Shown piece by piece: positions 901-7,523 of a DNA stretch of 8,316 nucleotides. The notes beneath the pieces were generated by a model, which saw only the letters and a program-made list of their open reading frames with translations, searched no databases and was not told where the DNA came from. The DNA comes from Nitrospinota bacterium (GTDB taxonomy: Bacteria > Nitrospinota > Nitrospinia > JACRGO01). Position numbers and translations under genes: made by a program. Location of the stretch: the NCBI GenBank assembly GCA_016212295.1, contig JACRGO010000097.1, positions 1-8,316 on the forward strand, read 5' to 3'. The first letter of the stretch is position 1, and every line of letters starts with the position of its first letter.

Positions 901-1563
901 TTATTGTTTGTGGACAAAATCAGCGTCGCGGTCTTCTGTCCTCCGGATTTTGTGTTGAGCGTCTATCATCTTTCCCATTTCAAAATCTATATATCTGTTT
1001 AACACTACTACTGTCCCATCTTTTAAATGCACACGACATGTACAAAGAAAAGGACCATATGCGGATGTAGATATCCCGATTACGCCCCGCTTGGGATATT
1101 CTTTGAATACTTTGTTTCCCCACATATGACCAAAGAAAAACTCTGAGAATTCGACAGCTGAAAGATCGGTAGTTTTATGCTTAATCAGATAAATGTAGAT
1201 ATCGTACTTCTGTCCGGAAGATCGCGAAGGCGTCAGCACATGAGTAAGAAAATAACCGTCGTTTTTTTTGTAAATATCATTACGTTCCTGCTCCCAACTT
1301 AGTGCAGCTTTATCTATGGCAATGTTTTTATCCTGCGAGGGCTGGGCATATTCTAACTGTTTGAGGTCCTCCCCAATTTCTAATGGACCTGCTTTAAAAG
1401 AACTGCCTCTTTCAATACGTTGCCTAACCGCTCCGATTATTTCACGCGCTTGTTTTTTATAGATGAAGAGCACAATAGAAATGAAAGCGGGCCAGACAAA
1501 CGATTGAAGAAGCGGTACATATGGTTGGAGTTTATCAAGTGCTTTCGCGATAAATTGTATCAT
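901..1563 (-). CDS. Single-pass membrane protein with predicted pYEATS domain
   Basis: The 220-residue protein starts at the ATG at 1563, preceded by GGGAG at normal spacing. A longer frame back to 1725 (TTG) lies inside an inserted MITE and is rejected. Residues about 16-36 form one hydrophobic membrane segment followed by basic residues (YKKQAREIIGAVRQRIERG), then the juxtamembrane motif FKAGPLEIG at 57-64. From about 117 the domain shows YDIYIYLIKHKTTDLS, VEFSEFFFGHMWGNKVF, GISTSAYGPFLCTC and NRYIDFEMG. This pattern fits the prokaryotic YEATS (pYEATS) domain as I recall it; the family is predicted from comparative genomics to act as a sensor in bacterial immunity and conflict systems. The ligand is unknown. 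The gene appears richer in A and T than the central housekeeping genes. No effector partner such as a caspase or nucleotide cyclase is visible nearby. Domain assignment is by eye, moderately sure. Confidence 0.7.
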   Translation of the reverse strand: MIQFIAKALDKLQPYVPLLQSFVWPAFISIVLFIYKKQAREIIGAVRQRIERGSSFKAGPLEIGEDLKQLEYAQPSQDKNIAIDKAALSWEQERNDIYKKNDGYFLTHVLTPSRSSGQKYDIYIYLIKHKTTDLSAVEFSEFFFGHMWGNKVFKEYPKRGVIGISTSAYGPFLCTCRVHLKDGTVVVLNRYIDFEMGKMIDAQHKIRRTEDRDADFVHKQ

Positions 1564-1602
1564 GTGTTTTCTCCCTGCTGCCCAAGTTATCCTGTTTCCT
1601 AT

Positions 1603-1732
1603 GAGCCTCTTGCAAAAATCAAAAATGGTTGTCATTTCGCCGTTTTTTGAGTCGAAATCCAGTGCCTTTGTATTAAAAACCTCTGGATTCCGGCTTAAAA
1701 ACTGCCGGAATGGCGAGTTTTGCAAGAGGCTC
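1603..1732. mobile_element. 130-bp MITE with 15-bp inverted ends and CTAT target duplication
   Basis: GAGCCTCTTGCAAAA at 1603-1617 is the exact reverse complement of TTTTGCAAGAGGCTC at 1718-1732. The element is flanked by CTAT on both sides (1599-1602 and 1733-1736), as expected of a target-site duplication. Inside, ATTCCGGC (1687-1694) and GCCGGAAT (1704-1711) make a REP-like hairpin. No coding capacity is visible, so it would need a transposase in trans. It lies 40 bp upstream of the pYEATS start codon and truncates an open frame entering from the other side. Confidence 0.8.
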
Positions 1733-6017: not shown

Positions 6018-7523
6018 ATGGCCCAGGAATCCATTAAAATTCTTTTAGCCGTAAAGGACCAGAACCTGGGGGAGACCATCAAGCTCCTCCTGAATGAACA
6101 ACTGGGGCTCTGGGACATAGAAATAACGGACCCAGGCCCTGGCGTTATTGAAAAAATCAAAGCCTCCTCAGGCAAAAGCGCCGGGATGTCCGCCTTGCTA
6201 GGAGGACTCACCGCCACCAACGCCCCCTCCCAGCCGTCCTGCGGATTCAATTTACTGATTATGGACTGGCACCTTGATGAAGGAGAATTCGCCTCCCTGA
6301 AGGAAATCAGAAAGCTTCATGACAGAAAAACCCTCCCGGCGCTCCTTATCACGAAAGACAGGAACGAACAGGAAATCCGGGCGGCCATTCTCGCGGGCGC
6401 GAATAACTTCCTTTTCGTGCCTATTACGGCTGACCTTTTGAACGCCAGGTTCAAGGATGTATTGGGAAAAAAACACGACTTCAAGGCACAGGCGGCCCTG
6501 TCTGTTTTCCAGAAGCAGGAGGGAGGACAAAAAAAGGAAGATAAAAAGAATAAAGAGCGGAAGCAGCAAATTCTCACTGGGGGCGCTTCCTACCACTCTA
6601 AAAAGGAAGTTTCCGAGGAAGAGGCCCGGTTCGCTGTTTCCAGGTTCCTCGCGCCTGATGAAAAAATAAACGGGCACTTCCACAGAATGGTGGATGTGGT
6701 CGGGGGAGGCCGGAATTGTTTTTGGGCCAGGGAAGGGGACACCGAGGCTGGGGGAACTCCCGTTGAATTGCAATACGTCACGCCTGCCGGAAATTCAAGC
6801 GGCATTCACGCCGACACCATTTCAAAAAGCCGGTTCATGGAAACTTTTTATATATGCACTGAGGAAAATTGTTCCATTATGAGATCGAAATCGTCAAACG
6901 GCCTTTCCCAATCGCAAGCCTCAGCCGGGCCGGACCAGACGCAGACCTCGAAATTACCCTTGCACGTGCATGAAATCATGGATGACGGAAAAAGAAGCTC
7001 GGCTTGCTACCTGGCGGAAAGGAAAAGCGGGAACGGGAAACCAATCATGTCCATCAATTACATGAGTTCCAGCGAAAGGACCCTAGGCCATGCCAAAAAC
7101 GTTGATATCGACTATTTTCAAAAGCGATTTTTGGAATGCACCCCCCTGAACTGCGCTGTCCTCAAGAAAAAGGAAGAACAAAAACAACTGGAAGAGCGCG
7201 CTAAAAAAGAGCGGCTGGCGGCGGCTCCCGAAGTAAAGGCGGGCGTGGCGCCTTCTCCCGCCATTCCCGTGGTGGAAACGCCGCGCGACGAAGGTCCTCC
7301 CATTAACGGCCATTACCAGGAAAAGTTGAAAGGCGGGGGCACGAATTGCATGTGGGCAAAGGAGATAGTCCGCGACGGGAAAAAAATAATAGAAACATTC
7401 ATTATGAGCGCAAAAGGAAAATCCACCGGCATACACGACTCCTACGTCGGCATGGAGGAATTCAAAAACCGGTTCACCCCCTGCTCCAGGGACAATTGCG
7501 GCATAATGAAGAGGTTAGATTGA
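6018..7523 (+). CDS. Receiver-like protein with three novel His/Cys modules
   Basis: The 501-residue cytoplasmic protein begins with a response-regulator receiver-like domain (about 5-150): KILLAVKD, then LLIMDWHLDEGE with the candidate phospho-acceptor D83, LLITKD with T112, and AGANNFLFVPITADLL. The lysine normally before that proline is V134, and an extra Gly/Ser/Ala-rich loop (50-75) is inserted, so phosphorylation is doubtful. A charged Lys/Glu linker (165-200) follows. Then come three modules at about 217-290, 312-385 and 429-500, each with His, Cys, His, Cys-x4-Cys: H220-C234-H264-C280-C285, H316-C330-H358-C374-C379 and H432-C444-H473-C489-C494. Each ends F-x3-F-x2-C-x3-N-C. Modules 2 and 3 are joined by a KKKEEQKQLEERAKKERL charged helix and a Pro/Ala-rich linker. 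The pattern suggests metal or cofactor binding, or redox disulphides; this is inference and I know no named family. The ATG at 6018 has only a weak ribosome-binding site (AAGTGAG). It stands alone on its strand. Confidence 0.85.
   Translation: MAQESIKILLAVKDQNLGETIKLLLNEQLGLWDIEITDPGPGVIEKIKASSGKSAGMSALLGGLTATNAPSQPSCGFNLLIMDWHLDEGEFASLKEIRKLHDRKTLPALLITKDRNEQEIRAAILAGANNFLFVPITADLLNARFKDVLGKKHDFKAQAALSVFQKQEGGQKKEDKKNKERKQQILTGGASYHSKKEVSEEEARFAVSRFLAPDEKINGHFHRMVDVVGGGRNCFWAREGDTEAGGTPVELQYVTPAGNSSGIHADTISKSRFMETFYICTEENCSIMRSKSSNGLSQSQASAGPDQTQTSKLPLHVHEIMDDGKRSSACYLAERKSGNGKPIMSINYMSSSERTLGHAKNVDIDYFQKRFLECTPLNCAVLKKKEEQKQLEERAKKERLAAAPEVKAGVAPSPAIPVVETPRDEGPPINGHYQEKLKGGGTNCMWAKEIVRDGKKIIETFIMSAKGKSTGIHDSYVGMEEFKNRFTPCSRDNCGIMKRLD

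Follow-up and report, generated by a model that had tools for sequence, protein, structure and literature searches.

CheY-like receivers (PF00072), among them the pseudo-receiver subtype, small barrels of the SH3-like, tudor and chromo types, and zinc fingers of the WRKY/GCM1 type (PF03106), in which C-x4-5-C and then H-x-H lie in one beta-sheet, are the described systems closest to the protein analysed here. In outline, receivers carrying a small metal-stabilised barrel are a known kind; the module family, the exchange of its ligands and a fixed gene order are new. By profile, the same domain as in our protein is found in Nitrospinota, to which the marine nitrite oxidiser Nitrospina belongs, both in proteins with one receiver and one module (REC-module), encoded in the order bioB-bioF-X, and in module-TPR proteins, so that a conserved, unannotated domain is defined in this phylum. 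The window, namely the whole stretch of 8,316 nucleotides of DNA that was analysed, differs from these single-copy relatives in encoding, not next to bio genes, a protein with three modules and an extra histidine, H264. Its relevant features are the following.

6018-7523, + strand: module-bearing open reading frame of 501 aa, with a degenerate receiver, a linker and three modules (from translation, models and homologues)
6039-6464, + strand: receiver (REC) domain, residues 8-149 (weak Response_reg match; model match to CheY/SLN1 receivers)
6576-6596, + strand: linker motif TGGASYH, residues 187-193 (from alignments)
6660-6887, + strand: module 1, residues 215-290 (from alignments; model pLDDT 86)
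6681-6683, 6717-6719, 6855-6857 and 6870-6872: candidate ligands of module 1, respectively H222, C234, C280 and C285
6675-6677 and 6807-6809: further histidines of module 1, H220, often conserved, and H264, not conserved in homologues
6951-7169, + strand: module 2, residues 312-384, with H316/H318, C330, C374 and C379
7299-7517, + strand: module 3, residues 428-500, with H432, C444, C489 and C494, the second His being replaced by Q434

The N-terminal domain shares the fold of CheY-like receivers, as indicated by the structural match of its AlphaFold2 model to the receivers of CheY and SLN1 (E about 3e-7), despite a weak score with Response_reg (Pfam PF00072, E 3.5e-4 for residues 8-149). Residue comparison shows that the Asp at the acceptor position (D83) and T112 are kept, whereas the acidic pair is replaced by V12/K13 and the position of the active-site Lys is occupied by V134. 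Only one of the readable receiver homologues retains the second acid and most lack the Thr, and a relative in genome G013 has Asn in place of the acceptor Asp. These losses, in the window protein and among its homologues, therefore identify a degenerate receiver, whose probable role is docking and not that of a normal phospho-switch. Further differences from CheY-like receivers are its fusion to unnamed modules and a GMSALLGG insertion before beta3 (residues 56-63), which in the form GM(S/A)xLLGG is common to the window protein and most single-module homologues. The same holds for the linker motif, with the form G-G-x-S-[FYW]-[YH] in an otherwise disordered linker, and the single-copy Nitrospinota REC-module proteins also share the REC-linker-module order.

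Sequence comparisons indicate that the three modules are homologous and not alike by chance. Pairwise BLASTP gave E-values of 3e-15 (1 vs 3), 3e-8 (1 vs 2) and 1e-8 (2 vs 3), and a profile made from 33 copies of other proteins, with the window protein excluded, recovered modules 1, 2 and 3 at E 2.5e-22, 8e-6 and 4.6e-16, respectively. Module 2 is the most diverged copy, having lost the GGG and the strand-2 Trp. The three copies likely originated by duplication within the window protein; in the module tree, modules 2 and 3 group together with a support of only 0.325, the modules being too short for firm branching. All three carry the ligand set of the REC-module proteins, that is, a strand-1 His, a Cys before the strand-2 aromatic, and C-x4-C. 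The sequence-only reading had described fifteen Cys and His residues in register, five per module, and all of them are at the positions given in the translation, from which the spacings also follow (14/14/12 from His to Cys, 30/28/29 from Cys to His, 16/16/16 from His to Cys and 5/5/5 from Cys to Cys), each module closing with F-x3-F-x2-C-x3-N-C. That it could assign the module to no named domain agrees with our profile searches, in which neither Pfam, NCBIfam, PHROG nor PDB yielded a sequence match (for PHROG, none below E 0.1), and nothing on the family was found in the literature.

Modelled alone (pLDDT 86, pTM 0.77), module 1 has four strands followed by a helix and a short strand, then the C-x4-C loop and a final helix. 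The same order of elements is displayed by all three modules in the full-length model (about residues 218-293, 315-402 and 430-500), whose pTM of 0.39 leaves the relative placement of the domains not fixed by the model. Each module is thus predicted to be a four-stranded small barrel with helices. A hairpin in the module 1 model is made up of strands 1 (16-23) and 2 (29-37), and H222 should lie about opposite C234 across it; we infer that the C-x4-C loop reaches this H222/C234 hairpin. Fold searches matched no named fold, which does not show the fold to be new; SH3-like, tudor and chromo-barrel domains head the weak matches, the best being the BAHCC1 tandem tudor, Spindlin and the MSL3 chromo-barrel, with Z up to 5.8, rmsd 3.3 over 73 residues and Foldseek E 0.2, values that are not significant in Foldseek and below the level of kinship in Z. 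Unlike these matches, the module is bacterial and carries a Cys/His site.

H222, C234, C280 and C285 are invariant in an alignment of 19 REC-module sequences, one of them window module 1, and H220 is nearly so. The five-residue site proposed earlier for module 1 is not supported in that form: homologues have E, M, V, Q or D in place of its member H264; this residue is private to the window protein, and none of H264, H358 and H473 is conserved outside it, which excludes a five-ligand site including H264 as a family feature. Overlooked in that proposal was a second His two residues further on in modules 1 and 2 (H222 and H318), which is better conserved in homologues.

The ligand positions were then read in 53 module copies. 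Where C-x4-C is present, the C234 position, just before the strand-2 aromatic, is Cys in 21 copies and His in 20, while in 10 copies lacking C-x4-C it is Arg, Lys, Asn or Phe. Both elements are therefore present in 41 copies and both absent from 10, with two exceptions, one being a truncated copy (L034) and the other (L047) having kept the His and lost the Cys pair (Fisher p 3e-9, uncorrected for shared ancestry). The 20 His-type copies are of the TPR type; all those with the Cys pair have the form C-x2-H-x-C, longer by one residue in a single copy, and no longer carry the strand-1 H-x-H. Both types of site thus count about four ligands each: H, C, C, C or H, C, H, C. Because His and Cys are exchanged for one another and lost as a unit, as predicted by a tetrahedral site and not by a disulphide, a four-ligand metal site is moderately supported by these alignments, in line with the metal site suspected by the sequence-only reading. 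Considering the established preference of such His/Cys ligand sets for zinc, the metal is probably zinc with a structural role. Nonetheless, the module-TPR proteins of a further phylum (L102-L109) have lost all Cys/His ligands, with Arg/Lys at the C234 position, and since copies free of any Cys/His exist, the barrel can fold without metal. The result is a testable metal site, with Cys replaced by His at a single position in some homologues and the whole ligand set lost jointly in others.

These same residues bear on a redox switch, in which disulphides would be made and broken, or a labile metal freed by oxidation, to gate the binding of the barrel to its partner. The proximity of three Cys per module in the predicted fold and their invariance in REC-module proteins fit such a switch, but it is unlikely considering that (i) His at the C234 position in the 20 TPR-type copies makes a disulphide impossible, (ii) these have an extra His inside C-x2-H-x-C, and (iii) a reducing cytoplasm is expected for a receiver protein without evident signal peptide.

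Scanning the contigs with the window protein alone gave no matches, while the family alignment as query did; its last two matches (L089, L090), limited to a 10-residue GGG-NC-W stretch, were set aside, and weak profile matches were not accepted (L035-L037, E 0.008-0.04; L011-L015, E 0.04-0.4). Whole-genome profile searches located the module in 4 of 77 species of the window's own phylum (the window's genome, G001 of the same genus, G013 and, truncated, G008). A second phylum (Nitrospinota) has it in 17 of 24 genomes and a third in 8 of 18; the rest of the several hundred genomes sampled across the domain gave no match. The records of the second-phylum relatives and of G013 are mostly labelled Nitrospinota, Nitrospinales or Nitrospinaceae, and three Nitrospirae. 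Two main architectures were observed, a receiver with one module and one module with about four TPRs, proteins with three modules being seen in a single genome. REC-TPR proteins are present in the same genomes as module proteins, so that all three pairwise fusions of receiver, module and TPR occur; TPR similarity alone, being generic, was given little weight. A protein of G001 (L101, 983-1705, + strand) has two modules free of the Cys/His set and no receiver, and is encoded behind a histidine-kinase gene. The module-TPR gene of G008 (L034, 1495-1927) is missing, in frame, the last part of the module together with the first TPRs, owing to either a real deletion or an assembly error.

In 12 Nitrospinota loci (L046, L063-L073) a module-TPR gene and a canonical cheY are arranged tail to tail, the encoded CheY proteins being 78-100% identical to that of L067; in the window's genome neither module gene is beside cheY. 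Taken together, the three pairwise fusions and the cheY adjacency in these 12 loci indicate signalling, and from fusions and neighbours an adaptor function in signalling of the two-component type may be proposed. Our main reading, to which we give a probability of about 0.5, sees in the window protein a signalling adaptor of the cytoplasm, composed of a degenerate docking receiver and three metal-pinned, partner-binding barrels. The receiver would dock to a signalling partner, while in each module a metal ion, most likely zinc, would join the C-x4-C knuckle, placed between the two C-terminal helices, to the first beta-hairpin, whose ligands would be a His in strand 1 and a Cys where strand 2 begins. 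The metal would be structural and the barrel surface would bind partners, with three copies allowing multivalent binding of higher avidity.

A second set of neighbours raises a different possibility, namely that single-module relatives serve biotin synthesis in an iron, sulphur or biotin role, for instance as donors of metal or Fe-S to BioB or as regulators of bioB-bioF, the window protein being a relocated form. The degenerate receiver is indeed placed in a near-constant biotin gene cluster: the gene for a degenerate receiver with a single module immediately follows the 3' end of bioF, on the same strand, in all 16 loci with enough flank to be testable (L010, L043, L044, L048-L057, L059, L061, L062), with bioB in front of bioF wherever the locus reaches that far; only bioF is seen at the G013 locus, with no bioB in view. 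BioB and BioF were identified in these loci by their Pfam domains, and the single-module gene is possibly a third member of the cluster. On the contrary, G008 has bioB-bioF without a module gene, no enzyme-like or DNA-binding domain is present, gene order by itself may mean co-expression, and the window protein is unlinked to bio genes, the bioF genes of its genome being on other contigs and its own neighbours encoding TerC/Alx, a c-type cytochrome, a cyclophilin and an RRM protein. In terms of gene position the biotin link is thus strong in one phylum and G013, and it is not evidence for the function of the window protein; the biotin reading as a whole seems improbable. A broader proposal, doubtful as a whole, takes in both settings: the metal-knuckled barrel family, with its exchangeable His/Cys set, would be a signalling module of Nitrospinota and neighbours, common to pseudo-receivers, TPR scaffolds and CheY, whose single-copy form ties signalling to biotin synthesis via the fixed bioB-bioF-X order and whose freed, triplicated, multivalent version is the window protein.

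A nucleic-acid-binding zinc finger of the WRKY/GCM1 type shares the H-x-H and C-x4-C pairs but is very unlikely, as the local likeness of the aromatic-x-x-C-x4-C strand (2 of 36 members, best E 0.012; PDB E 0.13) is not significant given the number of searches, the H-x-H precedes C-x4-C in the module, in reverse of WRKY, an extra invariant Cys is present and the WRKY heptad absent, and fold searches return barrel domains instead. An Ogr/Delta zinc finger (E 0.48) was also rejected, as was a c-type haem site (C-x2-C-H), the modules having C-x4-C without a following His.

Elsewhere in the window, the protein encoded at 901-1725 (- strand) carries at its C-terminus a pYEATS domain (Pfam E 1e-10), which is known from prokaryotic proteins with a predicted part in conflict or signalling. 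The RRM RNA-binding protein (2544-2978, + strand) has a long glycine/arginine-rich tail and resembles eukaryotic and cyanobacterial glycine-rich RNA-binding proteins.
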